From: a virus
DNA: 27,065 nt
Strand: one strand, 5' to 3'
Virus record (IMG/VR): IMGVR_UViG_3300047462_000692
Coordinates: 1 to 27,065 of that record
The notes beneath the pieces were generated by a model. It was given only the letters and a program-made list of their open reading frames with translations, was not told the origin of the DNA and did no database searches. Positions 6,643 through 25,520 of this stretch are shown one piece after another. Position 1 is the stretch's first letter. The number at the start of each line of letters is the position of its first letter. The translations under genes were made by a program, and so were the position numbers.

Positions 6643-7965
6643 ATGGCGATTAATAACTTTCCGATTGCTTTGCAGAGCATTATTCAGCAGAATTTTCTGG
6701 AGCGCGAGTTTCAGACCTCGCTTGAAGCAAAGCTTGGCTTCCGCGCTGTTGCCGACCGGATGGATTTCCCGAACACCATCGGTGAAACGATCACCAAAAC
6801 CCGTGCCGGCTTGCTGCAAGTGAGCACCACGCCGCTGGTTCCGGCGAATAACACGAATTTCGATAATGGTTTGACTTCTCAGACCTGGGGCGTCGAGCAG
6901 TTTACCCTGTCCATCAATGAGTATGCGAACACCATCGATCTGAACACGGTTAACGAGCGCGTGGGATTGGCTGGGCAGTTTTTATTGAATGCATCGCGGC
7001 TTGGGGAACAGGCATTTCGTACCTTGGACACGCTGGCGCTGAACGCGTTGCGGAATACCTATATGGGTGGCAATACTGCCGTAAGGGTCACGCTTGGGAG
7101 CCCCGGAACCGCGGTGCATGTTGACGATATCCGCGGCTTCCAGACCACCTTGAACAACGAGGGGCAGGTTGTTGCCGTTAGCGGGAGCAACTCGGTTCTG
7201 GTGTCGGTCGGGTCTGAGTCCTACACCCTGGTCGGCTCGACGCCAGATGGAACTAATGTTAGTGCAGCGCTGCAGCAGGGCGGCATTTCCGGGACGTTGA
7301 CGTTTTCTGGGAACGTGACCGTCGCCGACGCAACCGCCGGGAATGCGGTTGTATCGGCGATCGCTCCGACGATCCTGCGTCCAAATGGCCGTGCAACCAC
7401 GGGCGCTTTGGTCAGCGGCGATACGTTGCTGATGGTGACGACGATTTTGTCGGCCGCCAGTACGATGCGCGACAACAACGTGCCGGATATAGACGGCGCC
7501 TATAACTGTTATCTATCGAACCGCCAGCTGCAAGGGCTGTTCTCTGATCCGGCATTCCAGCTTTTGTTCCGCGGCGCTTACGGGTCGCAGGAATACCGGC
7601 AGGGAAGCGTATTCGAATTGATGGGCGTTCGCTTCGTTCCGGTCAACAACGTGGTTCTGCCGCAGGTTGTGAGCGGGAATAATGTTTATCGCGCGATTGT
7701 GTGCGGGCAGGGCGCTTTGATCGAGGGCGATTTTGCGGGCCAGGATGCCGAGGATACGCCTGGCAATATTGGCCAGAAGGTTACTGTGGATGGTGTCACC
7801 ATGATCACGCGGGAGCCGATGGACCGTTTGCAGGAAATTATTGCACAGTCCTGGAAATGGATCGGCGGGTTCTGTGTGCCGTCCGACACCACGGCGAATC
7901 CGTCGGTGATTCCGACCGCCAATAATTCGGCGTTCAAGCGCGCGATCGTGATCGAAAGTCTGTAA
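6643..7965 (+). CDS. major capsid protein with insertion domain
   Basis: A 440-aa protein with ATG 6643 behind GAGGA. The N-terminal arm (MAINNFPIALQSIIQQNF) is followed by a helical region (EQAFRTLDTLALNALRN). A Gly/Ser/Thr/Val-rich beta segment at about 172-245 looks like an I-domain inserted in an HK97-type fold. The remaining core includes the LSNRQLQGLFSDPAFQLLF and GVRFVPVNNVVLPQVV segments. The C-terminal region has IIAQSWKWIGGFCVPSD. It would form the icosahedral shell. Position after the scaffold and the two hairpins upstream fit a highly expressed structural gene. No N-terminal propeptide cleavage site is evident. HK97 fold is inferred from layout, not from a search. Confidence 0.88.
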   Translation: MAINNFPIALQSIIQQNFLEREFQTSLEAKLGFRAVADRMDFPNTIGETITKTRAGLLQVSTTPLVPANNTNFDNGLTSQTWGVEQFTLSINEYANTIDLNTVNERVGLAGQFLLNASRLGEQAFRTLDTLALNALRNTYMGGNTAVRVTLGSPGTAVHVDDIRGFQTTLNNEGQVVAVSGSNSVLVSVGSESYTLVGSTPDGTNVSAALQQGGISGTLTFSGNVTVADATAGNAVVSAIAPTILRPNGRATTGALVSGDTLLMVTTILSAASTMRDNNVPDIDGAYNCYLSNRQLQGLFSDPAFQLLFRGAYGSQEYRQGSVFELMGVRFVPVNNVVLPQVVSGNNVYRAIVCGQGALIEGDFAGQDAEDTPGNIGQKVTVDGVTMITREPMDRLQEIIAQSWKWIGGFCVPSDTTANPSVIPTANNSAFKRAIVIESL

Positions 7966-8180
7966 TGGCACGGGCGTCAAAGGCGCATGTCGGGGACCAG
8001 GTCGTGCTGCCGGAAGAACTGCCTTCCGGCGTGCGTCTTGAAAAGGTCTTTGGATTTGTCGACGAGTATGGCGATAGGTGGCATTGGGAGGCGGGACAGG
8101 TTGTTCACAATCCCGCTGTCGTCTCCATGCTACTGAACCGCAAGGCGCCGGTGGTCGTGATTGGGGGGTCTCTCGCATGA
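7965..8180 (+). CDS. small conserved phage head-region protein
   Basis: A 71-aa protein translationally coupled to the capsid gene by a TAATG junction. The core FGFVDEYGDRWHWEAGQVV followed by PAVVSMLLNRKAPV recalls small proteins often found right after capsid genes in proteobacterial phages. There is no membrane segment or signal peptide. The role is not known; a minor capsid or connector-assembly role is inferred from position only. It ends in a 4-nt overlap with the next gene. Confidence 0.6.
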   Translation: MARASKAHVGDQVVLPEELPSGVRLEKVFGFVDEYGDRWHWEAGQVVHNPAVVSMLLNRKAPVVVIGGSLA

Positions 8181-8632
8181 GCAACAGCGTTACCGAGACC
8201 GATCCCTCCCAAGAATACGTTAGCAGCGCCCTTACCGATGACGAAAAGGCAAATATCCGGCGCTTCTGCGGTTATCCGGCTTATGGCGCCGGGCCTTCCG
8301 GCTTTCAAGGATGGCGGTTTTTTCAAGCCTATGGGTTGCTGGAATACCGTTTAGGCGTGCAGGCGGATGGGGTGACGCCCAACCTGGCGCCGGCTGAGCT
8401 GTCGATCCTGCGGCAGTATCTGGCTGCGCTTTATACGCTTGAGGCCGCCATTCCGGGCGCCGGTGTCAATCTCGACACCGCGTCCGCCGCGGTTTGGGTG
8501 CATAATCCGAATGAAGTTTTGGACCGGACGACGCTGTATGATGCGTGGTGCCGGCGGCTCTGTCAGTTTCTTGGTCTGCCGCCCGGACCTGGCCTGTCCG
8601 GGGGTAACAACAGCGTCAATCTGGTGGTTTGA
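8177..8632 (+). CDS. head-tail connector / adaptor protein (probable)
   Basis: The frame is open from 8078, but ATG 8177 overlaps the previous stop as ATGA and gives a 151-aa protein. The N-terminal LTDDEKANIRRFCGYPAYG motif, central LEYRLG and LSILRQYLAALYTLEAAIPGAG, and a helical C-terminal WCRRLCQFLG are typical of small helical adaptor proteins that bind beneath the portal. Immediate context (capsid, small protein, this, then a second connector) is the normal place for a head-completion protein. The exact homologue (gp6/gp15 type) cannot be fixed by eye. Confidence 0.65.
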   Translation: MSNSVTETDPSQEYVSSALTDDEKANIRRFCGYPAYGAGPSGFQGWRFFQAYGLLEYRLGVQADGVTPNLAPAELSILRQYLAALYTLEAAIPGAGVNLDTASAAVWVHNPNEVLDRTTLYDAWCRRLCQFLGLPPGPGLSGGNNSVNLVV

Positions 8633-9276
8633 TGGTAAGTGGCGCCGCTATTGCAGCGAAAGTTAATTACGGGCTTGGCATTTCGGGATCGAAGGCCGGT
8701 TTTCCGATGCAATGGTATCGGCCATCTGGAAGCGGTCCGGTCATCGCCAGCGGTAATCTGCTGGGGTCGGTGAATGCCATTGTTTCGCCGAACACAAATT
8801 TTCTCGCGGCCGCCGGTCAGTGGGGAAAGGGTGACCGGTTCGGGGCGTTTGATCCGACAGAGTTTTTGGCCGGCGATTATATTGTTGGGGCCGATACGCT
8901 TTTCGTGGCGGAGATTGTTCCGGCGGCAGCCGCCGTAAGGCTGGTTTTGTGCAATGAAATTTTGACCTGGTCGACGACGAGCGATCCGCCGCCAGGCCCG
9001 GGATTTCGGCCTGGGGTGCGGGTTGCGACACCGGTTGTGACGGGTTGGCCGGTTTGGCTGCAGCCTGCCGATAAGAAGTCTCCGAGCGAGATGCATTTGC
9101 CGGGTACGGTTGAGATGCCGAATGTTGTGGTGTTTCTTCCGGCCTCGATTCCGGGCCAGATCCTGCGTGGCGATCAGTTGCAGACGGCCGAACCTTTGCC
9201 GATCACCTATACGGTGGAAAATGCCATTTATTCGCCGAATGGCTGGCAGATTACCGCGATCCGCGCCGGCGCATAA
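8632..9276 (+). CDS. head-tail stopper / neck protein (probable)
   Basis: Start ATG 8632 overlaps the upstream stop as TGATG; a TTG three bases earlier is less likely. The 214-aa, beta-rich product contains QWYRPSGSG near the start and FLAGDYIVGADTLFVAEIVP in the middle, then VRLVLCNEILTWS. This arrangement (YRP, GDYLVG, FFVA, cN) recurs in connector proteins of alphaproteobacterial phages, as I remember them. It would close the head or join the neck to the tail. It is followed by a TAATG junction to the next frame. Confidence 0.6.
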   Translation: MVSGAAIAAKVNYGLGISGSKAGFPMQWYRPSGSGPVIASGNLLGSVNAIVSPNTNFLAAAGQWGKGDRFGAFDPTEFLAGDYIVGADTLFVAEIVPAAAAVRLVLCNEILTWSTTSDPPPGPGFRPGVRVATPVVTGWPVWLQPADKKSPSEMHLPGTVEMPNVVVFLPASIPGQILRGDQLQTAEPLPITYTVENAIYSPNGWQITAIRAGA

Positions 9277-9293
9277 TGATAAAGGAAATCGAG

Positions 9294-9971
9294 ATGACAA
9301 CGACAAACGCTGGAACGAATGCGGGCGCTGCGCTGGCCGCCGCCATTGAGAATGAGAACCTGCATAAAAGCGCGGCGCAAGCGAAGGCTCGGGCAGCCAA
9401 TGTTGCCACGGCTAAAAGCGCCGATCTGATTGCGCGAGCCGCGAGTGGCACCGAGGTGGATGCCGCTTGCCTGATGCAGGCGCAGGATGAAGCAAGGGTT
9501 GCTGCGGCCGAGTTCGACATTGCCAGCGCTATTCAACGCGGTGCGGAAAAGCGCAGGCAGGAGGCCGAAATTGCTGTCTGGTTTGAACAGGCGGAGCGCT
9601 TGAAAAATTCCGTCGAGCAGTGCTTGAACGAGAGATTTGCCGCGGCGGCCGCCGTGGATTCCTGTTTGGCGGAATTAAATCGCGCCATCGCGCGATTCAA
9701 TGAGGCGGGACAAAGCTTTTCGAATGCGAGAATTGCGGCATCTGGTTTTATGGCTGATCGGCAGGCCAGGCTGGCTGTCAACCCGGTTCTGGCGGCCATG
9801 CCTGCCGGCACGCATCCAAACGCGAGCAACAAGCACGGAGCGGAGGTGCGCCAAATCAGTGCTGCTATTTTCGATGCGGCCAGCGGATTGGAGCGGCTGA
9901 TACCGATTGCAAGCCTGGTGCAACGCGAAACGTTTCTTTGGGGCCGGGTATCTTCCGGATCCGGTTCGTAA
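9294..9971 (+). CDS. alanine-rich coiled-coil protein, unknown role
   Basis: ATG 9276 overlaps the upstream stop, but ATG 9294 has AAAGGAAA at a good distance and is preferred. The 225-aa protein is very rich in Ala, Glu, Arg and Gln, with a predicted long helical region from about 10 to 160 (for example AAQAKARAANVATAKSADLI), so a coiled coil is likely. There is no membrane segment. It lies between neck proteins. I do not recognise the family. A structural spacer or an assembly factor are both possible. Confidence 0.55.
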   Translation: MTTTNAGTNAGAALAAAIENENLHKSAAQAKARAANVATAKSADLIARAASGTEVDAACLMQAQDEARVAAAEFDIASAIQRGAEKRRQEAEIAVWFEQAERLKNSVEQCLNERFAAAAAVDSCLAELNRAIARFNEAGQSFSNARIAASGFMADRQARLAVNPVLAAMPAGTHPNASNKHGAEVRQISAAIFDAASGLERLIPIASLVQRETFLWGRVSSGSGS

Positions 9972-9989: not shown

Positions 9990-10970
9990 ATGGCCACCAT
10001 AGACGACGTTGAGCAGGGCGTTTGCAATGCCCTGGCGGGGGTATTGTTTCCGGGCCAGGCCTATCTGGCGGGCGCGGTGGCGACGTGCGACGCCCCTTGG
10101 TCCGGGGCGATCGGGGCCCCGACCTACGCAATACAGGCAAAGCTTTATGTTGGGGAGCCGGTTACGGCCGGGCTTGAGGCGGATATTGCCGCTGGGATTT
10201 CGAATATTGGTGTGATGCGAATCGCCGGTGCGACGCGCGACGTGACGCGAACCAGTCCATATTGGGTGAAGACGAGTGCCAGCGCGCCAACATTTTTGGC
10301 CGCGGCTACCGAGGGTTGCGTAACTTTTGGTGGAACGGCCGGCGCGGGCCAGGTGGCGGGGGTGACGGCGGGGGGCGTTTGCTACGCCTATCGCATGTCC
10401 TCGATCGACAACCCGGCGACGGTCGCATCGGCGTTTGCTGCGGTTATTCCGGCCGCGGCTGCGAGCGGCGCCGTGCTGACGGCGGCTTCGATCCGTGCGG
10501 CAAATGTGGTCGCGGATCAATCGGCGTTCTGGCTGACCGGTCAGAACGAAACCCAGCTGCAGGTGGCCATTGTCGCAGTGCCGTTCGCAGGTGCGGATGG
10601 ACCGCTGGTTCGCGCTGCTTTGACGCGTGCCGTTTACGCCATCGAATCCGCCATGCGGCCGAATGGAAGCTTGACGCGTTTCATTGGGCTACCGGACGGC
10701 ACCACCGCGCAGATTACAGGGTCGGATGAGCGCGATGATGACACCGTGCGGCGCGATGATATGTGGCGGCGCTGGATTACGTTTCGGATAATATACGATG
10801 TTGGCATTAGCCAATTGCAGCCGGCCGCGTTGGCGCCGCTGGTTCTCTTTGGCGCCGATGCGGCGGAGATACAGTGGGCTGGTAATGGCGCCCCGGTGGC
10901 GGGAATTCTTACCGATGGCGCTGGTCATGTCCTTACCGATGCGAGCGGCGATTTGCTTGGAGCCTACTGA
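9990..10970 (+). CDS. neck / tail-completion structural protein (probable)
   Basis: A 326-aa protein starting at ATG 9990 without a strong ribosome site. The N-terminal part has GATRDVTRTSPYW (about 79-91). The middle has TEGCVTFGGTAGAGQVAGV. Around 190-220 the LQVAIVAVPFAGADGPLVRAAL stretch and later WRRWITFRIIYDVGIS suggest a mixed alpha/beta fold similar to tail-terminator domains, embedded in a larger protein. The C-terminus (GVLTDGxGxVLTDASGD-like, about 305-323) looks like a small repeat that could be surface exposed. Position immediately before the tail module supports a tail-completion role. It directly abuts the next start (TGA then ATG). Confidence 0.5.
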   Translation: MATIDDVEQGVCNALAGVLFPGQAYLAGAVATCDAPWSGAIGAPTYAIQAKLYVGEPVTAGLEADIAAGISNIGVMRIAGATRDVTRTSPYWVKTSASAPTFLAAATEGCVTFGGTAGAGQVAGVTAGGVCYAYRMSSIDNPATVASAFAAVIPAAAASGAVLTAASIRAANVVADQSAFWLTGQNETQLQVAIVAVPFAGADGPLVRAALTRAVYAIESAMRPNGSLTRFIGLPDGTTAQITGSDERDDDTVRRDDMWRRWITFRIIYDVGISQLQPAALAPLVLFGADAAEIQWAGNGAPVAGILTDGAGHVLTDASGDLLGAY

Positions 10971-11750
10971 ATGACCAATGCCGTTACGATCAATGCGCCG
11001 ATGGTGGCGTCGGTGGGAGTCGCGTTTCCGGTCAACGGTACGGTGAGCCCGGCGGGAGATGCCGTGCAGCTGCAGCTTGATACGCAAACGATCACGCTGC
11101 CGAGCGGTCCGTGGGAAACGGCAACCACAGCGGCGGGCGTGTTTGCGGGGGCAATGGAGATTGTGGCGCCCGGGACCTGGTATGTCTGGGCGTATGATCC
11201 AGTCTCCGGCGCGTCAGCGGTTTCTGCCGCCATCTCCGTGGCGGCGGCTTTTCTAAATGCCGTGGAAGCAATTCCGGTTTCGATTTCCGTGGCGGCGTCG
11301 TTGCTCGGCGGTAGTGCTGCAGGTGAAACACCGGACGAACTGACGATTGCGGCCGCTGCAACCGATACCGATACCGCGTTGGTCGCTCAGAGCGGAAAAG
11401 TGCTTTTCGCGCAACCGTTCTCGGCAATTTGGACATGGATACAAGAGCATTTACCCGGCTATTTGATGCCGCAGGTGACAATTGCGGCCGCTGGAACCGT
11501 CCAGCTCGATAATTCGGCGCATAATCAGCGGATTTTGCTGATTACCGCGGCCGGCGTGACGATCTCGCCGCTTGTGAGTTCGATGGGGCCCGGCTTTATC
11601 TGCGATGTGATTAATGCGTCCGGATCGACTGTGGCCCTTTTGGGACTGGCCACGAATTCGGGTGCTAACACAATTGCTGTCGGTGGTATTGCACGCATTC
11701 TGGCCGCCACGCCGCCAGGTGGATCTTTGACTGTGTACGCGAAACTATGA
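10971..11750 (+). CDS. Ig-like domain protein with fibre-like C-terminus
   Basis: A 259-aa protein. Residues 10-90 form one Ig-like beta-sandwich of the same type that occurs twice in the protein encoded at 13459: compare GTVSPAGDAVQLQL and GTWYVWAYDPVSGASAVSAAISV with the GTVSP...AVQVGLSS and GTFYIWAEQTA...AVSAAL patterns there. Residues about 150-168 (FSAIWTWIQEHLPGYLM) link to a C-terminal beta region (GFICDVINASGSTVALLG, GANTIAVGGIARIL) that resembles fibre or decoration domains. It may decorate the virion or form part of an adhesin. It ends in an ATGA overlap with the esterase gene, so the two are translated together. Confidence 0.6.
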   Translation: MTNAVTINAPMVASVGVAFPVNGTVSPAGDAVQLQLDTQTITLPSGPWETATTAAGVFAGAMEIVAPGTWYVWAYDPVSGASAVSAAISVAAAFLNAVEAIPVSISVAASLLGGSAAGETPDELTIAAAATDTDTALVAQSGKVLFAQPFSAIWTWIQEHLPGYLMPQVTIAAAGTVQLDNSAHNQRILLITAAGVTISPLVSSMGPGFICDVINASGSTVALLGLATNSGANTIAVGGIARILAATPPGGSLTVYAKL

Positions 11751-13165
11751 CGGCCGTCGATATCACGAGTCTCGGACGATTGGTTCTTGCGGCACCGGGA
11801 GCGGTTCTGCAAAGCGACGTTTCAACTGGCGGCGGGTCGGGCGGTGGCGATGGCGGTGGTGGCGCAAGTGGTCTTGCAAACATCACCTTGCTCAGCGGGC
11901 CTGGCCAGAGCAATGCCGGCTATGCGGAGACCCAGGACGGCGCGTTTCTGGCGATGGTTCAAGCGACTTCGTTCTACTTACAGGGAACGGGTACGCCCGC
12001 CGAGCTGACATCCTGGGTGAACGCCGGCCAGGCGGGTACGGAAGTCTCGGGTATTGGCGTGATGGAGATTGTCACTCCCACCTTGTACAATGCAGCCTTC
12101 CTGGCGAATTCCGCCGGTGCGTCGTTTTCCGCGGCAACGGCGGCGGAAGCTAGCCTTGGCACCTGCGGAACCGGGTATTCGGATTATGTGGCTGGATTGA
12201 ACAACACCCAGCTCGGGCAAGTCCAGGCGCTGGTTTCGTATTGGGGAGAGAATGATAGCCTCGAATACGGCCCGGCGGATAAGGCGGTTTATAAGGCGGC
12301 ATTGGCGAACCTGCTGGCACAGGTGAGGGCCATGCTGGGCAGGACGGCAGCTGAACTGCCAATGATTTTTTTTGGCCCGCCTTATGGACTGCTACCGAAT
12401 TACATCACCTATCCGCCGACGTTACGCGAAGCTTGGGCGGAACTGGATGCTGATCCGGCGCAGAATTTTTATTGGGCGGTACGGCAGACTTATGACACGA
12501 TTTCTCGCAATGAAACGTGGAACGCGGTTACGGGTGTTGCGAGCGGCGGCAATACCGATGGCGGCCACAGGAGTGCGACCGATAATGTGACGCTGTTCAA
12601 ACGCGCGGCACTGCCGGCGGCGCGGGCGATATTGATGGCAAACGGCTTGCCGGCTGCGCTGATTCCGGTGTCTCTCGGCTCGGGGCTTGGGCCGTCGATA
12701 ACGGATGCAGCGCTCGTTGGCACGGATCTGACGGTTACGATTACGCATGATGGCGGCGATGACCTGATCGTGCCGCTTCTGGCTAGCCAGGGCGTTGGTT
12801 TCTCGGTCATGGATGGTGGCGACACCGCCGCGCCCGGAAATATCATCCAGGCAACGTCGTGCATTCGAATCGACTCGACCCATCTGCTCGTGACGTTGGC
12901 GCGTGCGCCGGTAAATCCGCATACCGAATGCCGGCTTTTGTACCCTTGGGCGGGAGAATATTGGACTGTGCAACCGGATAGCGAAATTGGCCGGGGTTGC
13001 GCGGTGACGGATAATTTTTCGGTCGTCGCTAAACCAGCGGGTTTCGATATCAATGCGACACTCGGCACGGGCTGGGCGGCCAATATGCCGCTTTGCACAC
13101 CGGTAACCGTTACGGGAACGGGTTCATCCGCGAGCGCGGAATTTGGAATATCACTCAGTTCCTGA
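11747..13165 (+). CDS. SGNH/GDSL carbohydrate esterase-like protein
   Basis: A 472-aa protein coupled by ATGA to the gene before it. A Gly-rich linker (28-39) leads to LLSGPGQSNAGY, with Ser55 in a GQSN block as in sialate O-acetylesterase and CE6-type SGNH hydrolases. SYWGENDSL (164-172) replaces the usual G-x-N-D block, and DGGHRS (271-276) supplies the catalytic Asp/His pair (D271, H274). Residues about 300-472 form a beta-rich C-terminal region, probably for binding or trimer formation. Such an enzyme would remove acetyl groups from capsule or O-antigen during adsorption. There is no signal peptide, as expected for a virion protein. Position far from the tail fibre gene is unusual. Confidence 0.78.
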   Translation: MTAVDITSLGRLVLAAPGAVLQSDVSTGGGSGGGDGGGGASGLANITLLSGPGQSNAGYAETQDGAFLAMVQATSFYLQGTGTPAELTSWVNAGQAGTEVSGIGVMEIVTPTLYNAAFLANSAGASFSAATAAEASLGTCGTGYSDYVAGLNNTQLGQVQALVSYWGENDSLEYGPADKAVYKAALANLLAQVRAMLGRTAAELPMIFFGPPYGLLPNYITYPPTLREAWAELDADPAQNFYWAVRQTYDTISRNETWNAVTGVASGGNTDGGHRSATDNVTLFKRAALPAARAILMANGLPAALIPVSLGSGLGPSITDAALVGTDLTVTITHDGGDDLIVPLLASQGVGFSVMDGGDTAAPGNIIQATSCIRIDSTHLLVTLARAPVNPHTECRLLYPWAGEYWTVQPDSEIGRGCAVTDNFSVVAKPAGFDINATLGTGWAANMPLCTPVTVTGTGSSASAEFGISLSS

Positions 13166-13175
13166 TTGGACAGCC

Positions 13176-13448
13176 ATGCCAGAAGAAGAAGTGAGTCTCA
13201 GCGTGCTTAAATCCGAGGTCGCGCGGCTCAGTATCGACTTCTATGCGCACGCAAAGAGGGTCGATGACTATATTTTGAAGATCATGGAATTTATTTCCGA
13301 AGAGATTGGCGCCCGGAAAGAGCGCGAGAAGACCATATCCGAACGAGCGGCGTCGATCGAAATGACGTGGACGAAAGTCATGGCGATGGCGGCGATGATT
13401 GGCGCCGCCACCTCGCTCCCGGCGATCTTTCACTTTATCCATCCATAG
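13176..13448 (+). CDS. small coiled-coil protein with C-terminal membrane segment
   Basis: ATG 13176 is chosen over the upstream frame start at 13143, which overlaps the esterase. The 90-aa product starts with a charged helical region (about 1-68, with REREKTISERA-like heptads) and ends with one hydrophobic helix, MAMAAMIGAATSLPAIFHFI (about 69-88). This layout resembles XhlA-type holin-associated or other membrane-anchored coiled-coil proteins. In the middle of a virion cassette it could also be an inner-membrane superinfection factor. The function is not known. There is no detectable strong ribosome site, so coupling to the esterase stop 11 nt upstream is likely. Confidence 0.55.
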   Translation: MPEEEVSLSVLKSEVARLSIDFYAHAKRVDDYILKIMEFISEEIGARKEREKTISERAASIEMTWTKVMAMAAMIGAATSLPAIFHFIHP

Positions 13449-13458
13449 AGGATTTCGC

Positions 13459-14529
13459 ATGGTATTTGCTCCAACGCCGCCGCGCACGCAATTGCCGGCG
13501 CAGCTACTGCCGCTGTCGTCAATTACTTCGACGGCAATTCAACAAGCCGGCGGATCTTCGGGGTCAATCGCGCTTGTTAGCCCGCCAACGACCGGCACGG
13601 CAGGGACTGCCTTGGCGTTGACGGGTACAGTTTCACCATCGGGCGCGGCCGTGCAGGTTGGCCTCTCATCTTCGGCCAGCAGCACGCCATCAAGCTGGGT
13701 CTCGGCAACGGTGTCGGGTACAGGGTGGACCGCGTCCCTCACCCCTTCCAGTGGCGGTACATTTTATATTTGGGCGGAGCAGACCGCGACACCTTCGGTG
13801 CAGGCGATTTCGGCGGCCGTCACCGTCGGTTCGGGTGCCAGCGTGGCGATTACCAGCCCACCCAGTATTGGCACGGTTGGGACGGCGCTTGCGCTGGCTG
13901 GAACGGTTTCGCCAGGCTCGACCGCCGTGCAGGTCGGGCTCTCGAGCTCGGCAAGCGTGGCGCCGACCAGTTGGATCAATGCGACGATATCCGGCACCGG
14001 ATGGACGGCTGCGCTTACGCCCTCAACAGCCGGTACATTTTACATCTGGGCTGAACAAACGGCTGCGCCATCCGTTAAGGCCGTATCCGCTGCTCTGGTT
14101 GTTTCGACGGCGGGCGGATCGGCGCTGTCCTACAGTCTCATCAGCGGATCCGGCAACGGATCGCTTACGGGCACCACACTTGCCACGACGAGCTCCGGAT
14201 CGGCGCCGGCGGTGGATTGGACTTCGAGCATTGTGCACGCGGCAACGGATGTGGCGCCGAATGTCACGCTCTCCGCAATTGGCAGCATAGCGGCTGCAAA
14301 ATTCTGGTTCGATACGACCAGTACGGGCGTTGCGCCGGGAACCTATGGCAACGGATTGTTCAATGGCGCTGCGGTCGCATTCTATGCCTTTGCCGATGGA
14401 TTTGGCACCCCAACCTGTGCTCCGGCGGCGCCCAGTAGCGCGGGTACCTATTACGGCAAGTACGCTTTTTACAACAGCTCCGGCACGCTGCTTGGCGTGT
14501 TTAGCACCAGCGCCATCACCGTTACCTAA
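13459..14529 (+). CDS. tandem Ig-like repeat structural protein
   Basis: The frame runs back to 13399, but ATG 13459 behind AGAGGA avoids the previous gene. The 356-aa protein has two tandem Ig-like domains (about 36-123 and 128-215) offset by 92 residues: ALALTGTVSPSGAAVQVGLS versus ALALAGTVSPGSTAVQVGLS, and GTFYIWAEQTATPSVQAIS versus GTFYIWAEQTAAPSVKAVS. A C-terminal 140-residue beta-rich domain follows (KFWFDTTSTGVAPGTYGNG, YYGKYAFYNSSGTLLGVFST). Ig-like repeats on phage capsids and tails usually bind host-surface or mucin glycans. It shares its Ig type with the protein at 10971, bracketing the esterase. It lies 15 nt before the sheath gene. Confidence 0.65.
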   Translation: MVFAPTPPRTQLPAQLLPLSSITSTAIQQAGGSSGSIALVSPPTTGTAGTALALTGTVSPSGAAVQVGLSSSASSTPSSWVSATVSGTGWTASLTPSSGGTFYIWAEQTATPSVQAISAAVTVGSGASVAITSPPSIGTVGTALALAGTVSPGSTAVQVGLSSSASVAPTSWINATISGTGWTAALTPSTAGTFYIWAEQTAAPSVKAVSAALVVSTAGGSALSYSLISGSGNGSLTGTTLATTSSGSAPAVDWTSSIVHAATDVAPNVTLSAIGSIAAAKFWFDTTSTGVAPGTYGNGLFNGAAVAFYAFADGFGTPTCAPAAPSSAGTYYGKYAFYNSSGTLLGVFSTSAITVT

Positions 14530-14544
14530 AAAGGAATGATCTGA

Positions 14545-16092
14545 ATGACCATTGTACAACAGGGCGCGATCAACACGACCGCGCTGATTGTTCCCGATCT
14601 GTACGTGCAGATCGTTCCGCCGCAAAATCTGCTGCTGAACGGCGTGCCAACCGATGTGCTGGGCGTGGTTGGCACGGCGCCCTGGGGGCCGGTGAATTCG
14701 CCCGTCATTGCGGGCAGCATGAGCGACTTCGCGGCCTCGTTCGGCACGCTTGTCAACCGAAAATATGATCTTGGGACCCAGGTGGCGATTGCGGTGCTGC
14801 AAGGGGCGTCGAATTTTCGATTGGTGCGAGTTACCGACGGCACCGATACGAAAGCTGATATCGTTATTCAGAGCACCTGCCTTACCATCACCGCAAAATA
14901 CACAGGCAGCGCCGGTAATGGGATTGTCGTTACCCTTGCTGCGGGCTCGGCCGCCAATACCACCCAGGCGGTCGTGACCCTGCCGGGCGCGACGCCGGAG
15001 ATTTATAATAATATTGCCGGAACCGGAAACGCGTTCTGGGTCAACCTGGCCGCCGCGATCAATAGCGGCAACAGCGCGTTGCGCGGGCCGTCGCAGCTGG
15101 TCACCGCGGTTGCCGGCGCCGGCACCGCGGCTCCGGCCTTGACGAGTTACACGCTGGCCGGTGGAACCGATGGCGTAACCTCGATTACCACCGCTTCGCT
15201 GATCGGCGTTGACTTCGCGCCGCGCACCGGCATGTATGCGCTGCGGGGGCAAGGTTGCGGTGTCGGCGTGCTTGCGGACCTTGACGATTCCACCTCTTGG
15301 ACGACGCAGGTTGCCTTCGGTCTTTCCGAAGGCGTGTATATGGTGATGACTGGTCCGGCCGGTGATAACATCACCAATGCGGTTTCGACGAAAGCCAATG
15401 TTGGGTTGGATAGTTATGCCGGGAAGCTGATGTTCGGGGATTGGCTGTACTGGTATGATCCGGTAAATGCCGTGACGCGTGCGTGCTCGCCGGCCGCCTT
15501 TGCCGCGGGCCGTCTCGCTAACTTGTCGCCCGAACAGTCATCACTCAACAAGCAAATCTATGGCGTGGTTTCAAGCCAGAAGTCAGGTGCTCCGGGGTCG
15601 CCGACCTATTCCACCTACGCAACCGCCGACCTTTCCGCGTTGCTTGGGGCCGGCATCGACGTGATCTCGAACCCGCAGCCCGGCGGCGCCTATTGGGGCG
15701 TTCGCGGCGGCTTTAACACGTCGTCAAACGCTGTTATCGACGGCGACAATTACACGCGCCTTACCAATTATATCGCTGCGACGCTGTCGGCGGGGATGGG
15801 ACAATATGTGGGGCAATTGGTCAACACGACGCTGTTTCAAAACATCAAGGCGACGCTGCTTTCTTTCCTGAGCGGGATGCTCACTCAGGGGCTGCTGGGT
15901 AGTAGCGATGGAACACTGCCTTTCGCGGTCGTTTGCGATACCACAAATAACCCGCTTAGCCGCACTGCGCTCGGCTATGTTCAGGCTGATGTGCAAGTGC
16001 AATATCAGGCGATCAACGAGAAATTCATCGTCAACGTGCAGGGCGGCCAGTCCGTGGTGGTTTCGCAGACCGCGACCATTCCGCAGCAGTAA
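14545..16092 (+). CDS. contractile tail sheath protein
   Basis: A 515-aa protein with ATG 14545 behind AAAGGAATGA. The N-terminus (PDLYVQIVPPQNLLLNGVP, VVGTAPWGPVN) is the conserved sheath start of Mu gpL/P2 FI-like proteins. The central TLAGGTDGV followed by ALRGQGCGVGVLADL and a C-terminal region with the conserved VIDGDNYTRLTNYIAATL and NPLSRTALGYVQADVQVQYQ complete the family pattern. It polymerises around the tube and contracts at infection. This fixes the phage as a myovirus type. An accessory beta domain (about 105-205) is inserted after the N-terminal region, as is common. Confidence 0.95.
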   Translation: MTIVQQGAINTTALIVPDLYVQIVPPQNLLLNGVPTDVLGVVGTAPWGPVNSPVIAGSMSDFAASFGTLVNRKYDLGTQVAIAVLQGASNFRLVRVTDGTDTKADIVIQSTCLTITAKYTGSAGNGIVVTLAAGSAANTTQAVVTLPGATPEIYNNIAGTGNAFWVNLAAAINSGNSALRGPSQLVTAVAGAGTAAPALTSYTLAGGTDGVTSITTASLIGVDFAPRTGMYALRGQGCGVGVLADLDDSTSWTTQVAFGLSEGVYMVMTGPAGDNITNAVSTKANVGLDSYAGKLMFGDWLYWYDPVNAVTRACSPAAFAAGRLANLSPEQSSLNKQIYGVVSSQKSGAPGSPTYSTYATADLSALLGAGIDVISNPQPGGAYWGVRGGFNTSSNAVIDGDNYTRLTNYIAATLSAGMGQYVGQLVNTTLFQNIKATLLSFLSGMLTQGLLGSSDGTLPFAVVCDTTNNPLSRTALGYVQADVQVQYQAINEKFIVNVQGGQSVVVSQTATIPQQ

Positions 16093-23224: not shown

Positions 23225-24075
23225 TGGCCAGCATCGTATCGCGTACCATAGCAGCGCTACCGAGCGGGCAGACCGTTGATTTTCAGGTTCTGAACAACAA
23301 TGGCGTTCTGACAACAGCGATTCTGCCGGTTTACGACCAAGCGGATTTCACCGGGCGTCTGTTGCGGCTCTTGCCGGGTGGTTGGTTCCCGGCCGCGGCA
23401 CCGCGTTTGTTCGCGGTGTTGCAGGCGCCGGCGCTTATGTTCTCACTGATCTACGGGATGACGGTGTTTGCAAAGGCGCAGCAACGGATTGCGTCGGCGA
23501 GCGGCGCATTTTTGGACCTGGCAGCGCAAGATTTTTTCGGCAGCGCGCTGCCGCGGCTGGAATATGAATCCGATGCGGCCTATGCGACGCGGATTCAATA
23601 TAATCTGACGGCGCCCCGCGGTACCTATAACGGCATGATGTCGATGCTGGAGCAGCTCACCGGCAACACCCCTGCCATATTTCAGCCGAATAATGTGGCG
23701 CAGACAGGGGGGTGGGCGACGCAGAGTGATCCAGTCGCGGGTGGCGGGGTATTTGCCTTCTACGATGATGCGGGCGAGAGCGGTGCCGGGTTATGGGGTT
23801 CGATGGCGCTGCCCTGCCAAGTTTTTGTTACCGTTGAAGCGCCTTTGACAGGATATTATGTCTTCGCGAATCAAGGTGGCATATCGACAGCGTTAGCACC
23901 CGCAATCGGCGGCGGGTACGGATTCGCGACACAGAGCATGCCAGTTGCCGGCGGTGGATCACTCGCCTTTGTAGATCCGGAGTCGGTACCGGGTTCAATT
24001 ACGGATGCCATTATCTATCAGCAAATCGCTGCATGGATGCCTGTGGGATACATCGCCTGGACCCAAATTACCTAA
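23224..24075 (+). CDS. tail protein I-like baseplate/fibre-attachment protein
   Basis: A 283-aa protein coupled by TGATG. By position (after J, before the fibre) it corresponds to gpI. The N-terminal two-thirds contains FTGRLLRLLPGGWFPAAAPR, FLDLAAQDFFGSALPR and DAAYATRIQYNLTAPRGTYN, as in the DUF2313/gpI-like relatives that carry R-L-L-P-P and x-x-Y-R. The C-terminal part holds two similar stretches, GGWATQSDPVAGGGVFAFYD (162-181) and GYGFATQSMPVAGGGSLAFV (231-250), which look like a duplicated beta motif. It would anchor the fibre to the wedge. Confidence 0.68.
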   Translation: MASIVSRTIAALPSGQTVDFQVLNNNGVLTTAILPVYDQADFTGRLLRLLPGGWFPAAAPRLFAVLQAPALMFSLIYGMTVFAKAQQRIASASGAFLDLAAQDFFGSALPRLEYESDAAYATRIQYNLTAPRGTYNGMMSMLEQLTGNTPAIFQPNNVAQTGGWATQSDPVAGGGVFAFYDDAGESGAGLWGSMALPCQVFVTVEAPLTGYYVFANQGGISTALAPAIGGGYGFATQSMPVAGGGSLAFVDPESVPGSITDAIIYQQIAAWMPVGYIAWTQIT

Positions 24076-24086
24076 CGGAGTTTTGC

Positions 24087-25520
24087 ATGACCGATCGCGT
24101 AATAAGCTATGCCGGTGCTTTGCCGCGCGTGGAGGACTTCTTATCTGTCGGCAAATACGCAATGGTAGGCGTCGGTGCGGTTGCCGAGGCCATTCTCGGC
24201 CAAATCACCCAGGTCGCGGGGTTGACGGTAACAGCTGTTCCAAACACGGCGGTGCCTGGTTCGGCGTTCGCCGTAAATGTCGGACGTGGATTTATCTTCT
24301 CGTATCAGGAGACAGATCCGAGCGCTTACGGTGTGCTAGGAACAGATACCGGGACCAATGTTCTAAAGACGGGCATTCTCGCGGCCGGTGTGGATGTTGG
24401 ACTTACGAATTCGGCTCCCGCATCTGCAGGCTATTCGACAAATTATCTGATATCCGCCGCATTCATTGAACAAGATATCAATGCAGCGGTATTGCCTTAC
24501 TATAACGCCGCGATCCCGTCGCAGCCGTTCAGCGGGCCGGCGAATAATTCAGCCGCGCAAGTTACGACACGACAGGATACGGTTCAGCTTCAGGTATTAG
24601 CGGGAACGCCGGCGCTTACAGGTACCCAAGTGACGCCGGCAACACCTGCCGGCTATGTGCCATTATATGTGGTCACGATCAAAAATGGCGATACTCAAAC
24701 CGTAAATGGACAGATCGCACTGGCGCCTGGCGCCCCATACATTAATTCTGTGGCCGGGCTGACTCAGATTATTCAACGTGGCTCAACAAACTATGCAGTA
24801 GCGGGCGGAAGCGCAAATCTGATTACTGTATCGCTATCGCCGGCCCTGACAGCTTATGAAGATGGGACATGGGTAACCTTCAAGGCCGCCGAGTCGAATT
24901 CGGGAGCTACGTTCATCAGTATAAATGGCCTATCTAATCTCGCCGTTTTACAGGGTGGCGCGACGCTTTCGGGTGGAGAAATTCTGGCGGATTGGTCCTA
25001 TAGTGGGGTTATTCTGTCCGGTAGTTTTCACTTGGCAGAGTCTGGCGCCGGCTCGATCAATGTTGCGCACGGAACGGCGTCCACACATGCCGTAAATATG
25101 TCGCAATTTCCTGTGCGCCAGTTTTTTTCTGCCTCGCAGCCTGGCATCATCTCTGGCCCTGCGAATAATACAACATATACAATTGAGACTATAGAGCTAA
25201 CATTTCCCGCCGCCAGCAAAAGCGGGGCGTTCCGCGCCAATGTGAGGATGGTAGGCGAAGGAACCGCGACCGCCGCAAACATGCGCCAAAACTTTCAAAA
25301 TATATTGAGCGACGGAACGAATACTTATATCGGGAACGCCTCCTTGGTCACAGCGTTCGCCATCGGAGACACGTGGGGAACCGCCGATACCATTCTAACG
25401 TCTGGAACCTATTCACCCGGTTCCACCGTGACGTTTACACATCAAATTCATACTGGTGGCGGCGGCCCCGATTTCACCATTCAGAACTGTTTTATGGAAA
25501 TCATTGTGGAGGAAGCCTAA
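24087..25520 (+). CDS. tail fibre protein
   Basis: ATG 24087 (CGGAG upstream) is preferred over the open frame from 24033, which overlaps the gpI-like gene. The 477-aa protein has an N-terminal attachment region (DRVISYAGALPRVEDFLSVG, GKYAMVG), then LISAAFIEQDINAAVLPYYN, and a central fibre domain SPALTAYEDGTWVTFKAAES, NSGATFISINGLSNL (about 251-284), the common 'itaYxdG...fkaaxxNxGatxisinG' module. The C-terminal domain (about 345-477) would bind the host receptor. No fibre assembly chaperone gene follows before the lysis genes. Confidence 0.78.
   Translation: MTDRVISYAGALPRVEDFLSVGKYAMVGVGAVAEAILGQITQVAGLTVTAVPNTAVPGSAFAVNVGRGFIFSYQETDPSAYGVLGTDTGTNVLKTGILAAGVDVGLTNSAPASAGYSTNYLISAAFIEQDINAAVLPYYNAAIPSQPFSGPANNSAAQVTTRQDTVQLQVLAGTPALTGTQVTPATPAGYVPLYVVTIKNGDTQTVNGQIALAPGAPYINSVAGLTQIIQRGSTNYAVAGGSANLITVSLSPALTAYEDGTWVTFKAAESNSGATFISINGLSNLAVLQGGATLSGGEILADWSYSGVILSGSFHLAESGAGSINVAHGTASTHAVNMSQFPVRQFFSASQPGIISGPANNTTYTIETIELTFPAASKSGAFRANVRMVGEGTATAANMRQNFQNILSDGTNTYIGNASLVTAFAIGDTWGTADTILTSGTYSPGSTVTFTHQIHTGGGGPDFTIQNCFMEIIVEEA

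Follow-up and report, generated by a model that had tools for sequence, protein, structure and literature searches.

A gene cassette between the putative tail terminator and the sheath

The window, meaning the whole stretch of 27,065 nucleotides analysed here (IMG/VR record IMGVR_UViG_3300047462_000692), is from a provirus of a contractile-tailed phage with Acetobacteraceae-like hosts, and at least one genome carries the element as a provirus. The list of open reading frames places four cassette genes between a putative tail terminator (TT) gene and the sheath gene, at the positions given by an earlier sequence-only reading. The genes that matter here are the following.

8629..9276, + strand: gp215, a neck protein (phrog_14605) inherited together with TT and the cassette
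9990..10970, + strand: TT326, the putative tail terminator (phrog_13532); its C-terminal extension, residues ~287-326 (...GILTDGAGHVLTDASGDLLGAY), is the proposed docking peptide
10971..11750, + strand: Ig1, with an N-terminal Ig domain (1-92), a linker and a C-terminal beta domain (166-259)
11747..13165, + strand: SGNH esterase (Est), with the N-terminal motif GRLVLAAPG, a Gly-rich linker, a catalytic domain (~43-298) and a C-terminal beta domain (~300-472)
13176..13448, + strand: CC, a coiled coil plus a hydrophobic C-terminal segment; the start is ATG, and an alternative TTG at 13143 is possible
13459..14529, + strand: Ig2, a tandem-Ig protein with a conserved segment at the N-terminus (MVFAPTPP), a pair of Ig repeats and a distinct C-terminal domain
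14545..16092, + strand: tail sheath (phrog_23, E 3.5e-45), the downstream edge of the exchanged block
24033..25520, + strand: canonical tail-fibre gene fib495, separate from the cassette

The cassette is tightly spaced, as had been claimed: TT ends at 10970, Ig1 and Est overlap by 4 nt, CC and Ig2 are 10 nt apart, and 15 nt separate Ig2 from the sheath gene. Purifying selection acts on each of the four genes (omega ~0.03-0.16). The Ig domain of Ig1 matches both repeats of Ig2 (~29% identity, E 2e-6 and 8e-6), which bears out the proposal of a shared Ig type, and several relatives have one Ig repeat fewer in Ig2. CC had been described as a coiled-coil membrane protein. The coiled coil holds, but the transmembrane segment is weak in the window, where the best 19-residue Kyte-Doolittle mean is 1.62 versus 2.0-2.6 in relatives. 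At most neck and tail-fibre sites, CC comes after the esterase.

The premise that the sheath normally follows the terminator directly agrees with approximately 65 cassette-less relatives, in which the TT-to-sheath gap is 79-574 nt; in phiKX1, a 67-aa ORF alone lies between the two genes and there is no cassette. Sheath relatives either have the cassette as a whole block or lack it, and the four genes do behave as a unit, in keeping with the suggestion of one shared assembly. The position of a gene is no proof of the position of its product in the virion.

The only named phages that share the window's sheath are phiKX1/2 and a distant Alicyclobacillus phage, and a tblastn search of 50,697 phage records with Est, EstC and Ig1 returned no match. 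Family libraries gave nothing informative for Ig1, a weak SASA match only for Est, and a function-unassigned PHROG only for TT. Naming the upstream gene a myophage tail terminator of the Mu gp37 kind fits its place between the adaptor/neck genes and the sheath; the identity is assigned by gene order and without a direct match, profile searches of PDB sequences having yielded nothing relevant for TT.

Inheritance of the cassette with the terminator extension

In the window's lineage, the TT extension is present in every distinct contig that bears the cassette and includes the end of TT (17/17) and in none of the cassette-less loci (0/~63). At 65-70% sheath identity, TT proteins are 55% identical within cassette-bearing pairs and 44.5% within cassette-less pairs, and 28.7% (maximum 35.7) across the two classes. 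The neck protein gp215 behaves similarly, with 24% identity across classes versus 55% and 35% within them at equal sheath identity. The adaptor connA and the sheath are not exchanged with the cassette, and connA lacks the pattern seen for TT and gp215; these two controls led us to reject general divergence as the source of the TT difference. By sequence comparison, TT and gp215 are swapped along with the cassette in this lineage and the adaptor and sheath are not, a co-exchange that could reflect recombination hitch-hiking.

These comparisons also bear on whether Ig1 might instead be a capsid-mounted head fibre or spike that carries the esterase. The C-terminal domain of Ig1 (AlphaFold model m4385f3726a75) resembles the capsid spike of Pseudomonas phage Pa223 (9ny6_C; Z 12.3, rmsd 1.6, with 86 residues aligned in the VIA structure comparison). 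However, the match is limited to this one domain, the N-terminal part differs and the mode of attachment presumably does too, and a common distal knob fold is uninformative on the anchor. Moreover, the major capsid protein is about equally similar across the cassette classes and within the divergent cassette-bearing class; TT and gp215, by contrast, follow the cassette. We regard a head location as quite improbable, and propose that Ig1 is the base or stem of an adhesin.

A second myophage lineage again carries the module between TT and sheath, in the gene order Hc1-Neck1-TT-phrog_208-sheath as in ST64B. Its TT is unrelated to that of the window (profile comparison probability 0.3), and its sheath belongs to a different family, phrog_165. 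TT extension and cassette are concordant in 33/33 contigs of this lineage; we give this concordance as counts because the tree-based independent pairs test was not significant (p 0.5; three state changes, 2-3 pairs). In L161-163, a natural 4.1-kb deletion takes the TT extension, the fibre and the esterase at once. Elsewhere, the TT of L209 has the same LTD-type extension followed by a different inserted gene, and five genomes have a TT fused to a ~350-aa domain for which the family libraries gave no informative match. An assignment of this domain by eye as a TIM-barrel glycosidase (WNELAEGGW) was dropped for want of search support. The arrangement may have evolved in two or more unrelated families of terminator, with some Acetobacteraceae TTs fused to this putative enzyme or binding domain, a proposal that we hold only tentatively.

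Homologous modules occur at a second type of site. Cassette-less relatives (L135-L139) carry one in the tail-fibre locus, downstream of the fib495 counterpart, and in the EstC tree neck and fibre sites are intermixed. The cassette had been called separate from the fibre; it does lie apart from the canonical fibre gene, but parts of it have homologues in the tail-fibre locus of relatives. It could be argued from the same observations that the cassette encodes ordinary baseplate fibres whose genes are merely placed before the sheath gene, particularly as the N-terminal anchors could dock at any place. This reading leaves unexplained why a TT extension accompanies every neck-site module in two lineages and why both are lost together in L161-163. 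In L068, whose contig is L137, a fibre-site module goes with a TT that has no extension, which led us to reject the idea that the extension tracks the module wherever it is, and the N-terminal anchor of the module differs between neck and fibre sites. We consider relocated fibre genes unlikely. In L128, where the module has a tail-fibre-like site, the protein immediately upstream of it terminates in a motif similar to the TT extension.

Neck mounting, one of the two placements (head or neck) that the sequence-only reading offered, is favoured by the tie between TT extension and cassette in two lineages, and further by the exchange of TT and gp215 with the cassette and the recurrent TT-sheath position. 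Other cassettes contain fibre-like, LamG, GP4-fibre-like and CBM-like parts. Given these parts and the modules in fibre loci, host recognition is the most likely function, and on its sequence relationships the cassette is a mobile receptor-binding module.

Predicted fold and activity of the esterase

The nucleophile motif GQSN (S55) and H274 are invariant in an alignment of 13 Est homologues, and the catalytic domain also holds W166-G-E-N-D. In the DxxH motif, the Asp (D271 in the window) varies among homologues, with Asn or Ile in L095, L097, L099 and L100. The predicted structure, from a shallow alignment (pLDDT 69), matches the CE20 acetylesterase XAC1771 (Z 19.9), SIAE (Z ~15) and an N4 tail-complex chain (Z 13.9). 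The Pfam SASA profile scores 16.2 bits (E 0.0081), below its gathering cut-off of 24.8 bits; therefore, we describe Est as working like SASA and do not file it as a Pfam member. The earlier esterase call agrees with this predicted fold, which is that of carbohydrate O-acetylesterases, and Est is a predicted SASA/CE20-like acetylesterase.

Such an enzyme might also be a lysogenic-conversion or cargo product that alters the host's own glycans and is no part of the virion. The proviral state of the element and the hydrophobic C-terminal segment of CC would suit this role. However, the cassette genes are packed gap-free inside the structural operon, their homologues belong to fibre loci, the block moves with TT, and the esterase N-terminus, by eye, looks less like a signal peptide than like a docking motif. 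We judge conversion or cargo to be very improbable.

A candidate neck adhesin and its relation to known systems

On balance, the cassette probably encodes a neck-anchored, interchangeable adhesin that bears a SASA/CE20-like acetylesterase and is docked via the TT C-terminus. In other myophages, the C-terminal arm of the tail terminator ring inserts into the top sheath ring. The extra C-terminal peptide of TT would emerge at the neck/tail junction and grip the N-terminal anchor of Ig1, which would project the spike-like domain. The conserved motif at the esterase N-terminus (GR-x-LL-x-APG type) would serve for attachment, the enzyme would strip O-acetyl groups from a host glycan, and Ig2 would contribute more Ig and terminal domains. 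The comparisons show the gene order, conservation and modularity, the pairing of TT extension with cassette, the joint exchange of TT and gp215, and the esterase and spike folds; virion location of the cassette proteins, docking to the TT extension, Est activity, the glycan target and any role of CC are inferred.

If this is true, contractile phages can bear at the neck the same receptor-binding and glycan-modifying modules that others put on tail fibres. The extension (~20-40 residues) is proposed as a specific, removable attachment point, which makes the role of collars and neck appendages in adsorption testable, and as a sequence signature it could be used to annotate second adhesin loci in uncharacterised phages.

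The description of the cassette as a new type of device was overstated. In the N4-like podophage G7C of Escherichia, gp63.1/gp66 form a two-component adhesin with an O-antigen deacetylase on a neck-connected fibre, and relatives swap the esterase for other enzymes (PMC6393563, PMC10743462). The cassette would share the neck-linked deacetylase and the exchangeable enzyme; G7C, as a podophage, has no sheath or tail terminator arm. The neck fibres of N4 and DEV (DEV gp53) are collar-attached and have an esterase-like domain (PMC10925440). The Est fold matches the N4 tail-complex chain across 219 residues, but the N4/DEV fibre is a single long polypeptide on the podophage head-to-tail adaptor, with no multi-gene cassette or TT extension, and the G7C/N4 adhesins showed no sequence similarity to Est, EstC or Ig1 in the tblastn search described above. 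CE20/SIAE enzymes (XAC1771, 7kmm) share the fold along the whole chain and the GQSN motif is present in Est, but identity is 16%, the DxxH Asp is not kept in all Est homologues, and the Est C-terminal domain occurs on other proteins in relatives.

T4 whiskers (wac), the XM1 collar spikes gp40, for which a host-sensing role has been proposed (PMC10491603), and the Milano/7-7-1 collars likewise surround the neck of contractile phages; they have no described enzyme and are attached as collar rings, not through a TT C-terminal extension. The lactococcal neck passage structure is also an appendage of the neck, optional and variable, and combines carbohydrate-binding modules with a conserved N-terminus, but it is a single protein of siphophages with Gram-positive hosts, and the part of the account consulted here mentions no esterase (PMC6669499). 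Relative to these systems, what is new is a probable neck-type deacetylase adhesin in contractile phages, an apparent platform at the TT C-terminus, and a module that moves between the neck position and the tail-fibre locus.

The cassette and its phage

The window, which is the whole 27,065-base IMG/VR record, carries the head, tail, and lysis set of a contractile-tailed phage as judged by ORF calls and profile matches. Its genes run in the order TerS, TerL, portal, major capsid protein, head–tail genes, sheath, baseplate, fibre, and endolysin-like gene, and the final base of the record is the exact end of the last ORF. The region considered here reads as follows.

8629–9276: neck protein gp215
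9276–9971: gp231
9990–10970: putative tail terminator (TT; identity by gene order) with a C-terminal extension
10971–11750: Ig1, first cassette gene
11747–13165: esterase
13176–13448: CC
13459–14529: Ig2, last cassette gene
14545–16092: sheath

The four ORFs, their tight spacing, the GQSN motif, and the conserved His proposed by the sequence-only reading are all real, and the Ig type that it saw in both Ig1 and Ig2 indeed represents homologous repeats. All four cassette genes are under purifying selection, with omega values of about 0.03–0.16 when set against as many as five relatives, versus about 0.02–0.06 for capsid, tube, and sheath. The predicted esterase model (pLDDT 69, pTM 0.79) matches carbohydrate O-acetylesterases over the entire chain, with Z scores of 19.9 for the CE20-like carbohydrate acetylesterase XAC1771, 16.8 for the tailspike of cyanophage Pan3, about 15 for mammalian SIAE, and 13.9 for one chain of the N4 tail complex. 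Because the Asp of the DxxH motif is not invariant among homologues, the catalytic triad may vary among members. In Ig1, a poorly predicted linker connects an Ig domain to a C-terminal beta domain (residues 166–259) that matches the Pa223 capsid spike in a structure search (Z 12.3, rmsd 1.6). CC is a short coiled coil with a hydrophobic end.

The closest named phages are Komagataeibacter phiKX1 and phiKX2 (sheath 53%), and phiKX1 has no cassette. The sole bacterial genome match is to a Rhodovastum atsumiense MAG, in an 88-kb contig that shares the cassette at 78–80% identity and in which the phage block is flanked by apparent host genes. A gene block of ~26–27 kb, from a DUF6362-like gene to the endolysin, is common to the window (1–27065) and this contig (L108; G001:C99 about 56.8–83.3 kb), and no integrase, repressor, or replication gene was seen in the MAG block. 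On a second contig (L206/L207), host-like genes follow the endolysin. Rather than an active phage, the block may represent a provirus that is domesticated or GTA-like. Members of the TT family were detected in 115 of 299 Acetobacteraceae genomes, mostly at one copy per genome, suggesting that proviruses of this type are very common among Acetobacteraceae.

Two other window genes deserve mention. A glycosyltransferase-like gene (1863–2798, recognized by eye and without a PHROG match) has an unusual location between the small and large terminase genes and is 84–87% identical to its copies in L108 and L206. The gp231 gene, for which no family match was found, was seen only in the nearest cassette-bearing relatives, at 59–90% identity.

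Linkage of the cassette to the tail terminator

Among 80 sheath relatives fetched, the cassette is confined to the nearest ones and two further loci (L009 and L024); in the other relatives showing both genes, TT and sheath lie 79–574 nt apart. In this lineage, ~40 extra C-terminal TT residues, ending in an LTDGxGxxLxDxxGxxLG-type motif, are present in every one of the 17 distinct cassette-bearing contigs that include the gene end and absent from all of about 63 cassette-less loci. An independent search started from TT returned cassette-bearing contigs only, plus one contig truncated at TT. When sheath identity is matched, similarity of TT and of gp215 is far lower across cassette classes than within them, which is not the case for the adaptor control gene connA.

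A second lineage (L133 and relatives) has the gene order Hc1, Neck1, TT, module, phrog_208, and sheath (phrog_165), which is identical to that of ST64B except for the module. Similarity between the TT families of the two lineages is not detectable, and therefore the TT–sheath position is occupied in two different head–tail backgrounds. Here, TT is 205–207 aa long and ends in a WDDGxxW-type motif when the cassette is present, versus 185–190 aa when it is not. TT form agrees with cassette status in 33 of 33 informative contigs; this concordance represents only three changes on the TT tree and is given as a count, with no claim of statistical significance. In a natural deletion found in three samples (L161–163; contigs sharing at least 99.6% identity), TT codon ~187 directly abuts the end of the esterase gene, such that extension, fibre, and catalytic domain are gone together.

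Three further arrangements point the same way. On one contig (L209), an unrelated 404-aa gene stands between the sheath and a TT that bears an LTD-type extension. In five Acetobacteraceae genomes (L185, L193/L215, L199/L214, L184/L211, and L194/L212), TT continues into a conserved C-terminal domain of ~350 aa that contains a WNELAEGGW motif and has no match in Pfam, NCBIfam, or PDB sequences. At the L128 fibre site, the module is directly preceded by a protein that ends in a motif resembling that of the TT extension.

Module variation and exchange with the fibre locus

As a receptor-binding module, the cassette is variable: its content between Ig1 and sheath differs among relatives. In L095, L106, and L107, a separate ORF encodes all or part of the SGNH domain and the esterase C-terminal domain is fused to other proteins; these cassettes also hold a GP4-fibre-I-like protein (PF23140), DUF4376, or a Laminin_G_3 lectin domain. 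A further hydrolase, of the GDSL type (6912–8150; phrog_6102 "lipase"), lies between Ig1 and esterase in L098, which thus has two SGNH enzymes in one cassette.

By using the esterase C-terminal domain alone as query, copies were recovered at fibre sites. The tail-fibre locus of the cassette-less L135–L139 encodes an Ig1-type spike domain with Fn3 or Ig repeats, the esterase, and usually a CC-like ORF, and L128 and L140 carry the module set in fibre-like surroundings. On the L068/L137 contig, the module is at the fibre site and TT has no extension. In an apparent siphophage (L124, 253–3874), the esterase lies directly upstream of a gene that by eye resembles a major tail protein; the C-terminal part of this latter protein matches Ig2. 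The tree of the esterase C-terminal domain splits with strong support into two halves, each with neck-site and fibre-site copies, and the L100 neck copy and L128 fibre-site copy are sisters (support 100/100), which indicates that the module moves between the two sites. At most neck and tail-fibre sites, CC follows the esterase. A GR-x-LL-x-APG type motif is likewise kept at the esterase N terminus at most sites, as would be expected if the enzyme docks on the same kind of partner.

A proposed neck apparatus and its precedents

Mu gp37 is a structurally proven tail terminator whose C-terminal hairpin enters the top ring of the sheath and moves when the tail contracts (PMC11915804), and the TT C-terminal arm forms part of this ring in Mu, Milano, and R-type pyocin (PMC11915804, PMC10491603). 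By gene order, gp37 is the counterpart of the second-lineage TT. Because the arm is built into the ring, residues beyond it would plausibly emerge outside the neck/tail junction. The added TT peptide would hold the adhesin base (Ig1 in the window), the esterase would hang on the adhesin via its N-terminal motif, like gp63.1 on gp66 in G7C, and deacetylation of a host glycan would help adsorption. What is demonstrated comprises the genetic association and the folds; we infer docking, location, and activity.

The sequence-only reading had held that a head- or neck-mounted glycan-deacetylating apparatus, separate from the fibre, would be a new type of adsorption device. This claim fails because G7C has a neck-connected deacetylase (PMC6393563), DEV has collar-attached fibres bearing an esterase-like domain (PMC10925440), 936 phages have neck structures with carbohydrate-binding modules (PMC6669499), and the contractile phage XM1 has collar spikes, as cited in PMC10491603. 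In the literature searched, no description was found of a contractile-phage esterase/adhesin module tied to a TT extension, or of such a neck module exchanged with the tail-fibre locus. Relative to these precedents, what is apparently new is the contractile-phage setting with its tie to the TT extension, together with the exchange between neck and fibre loci.
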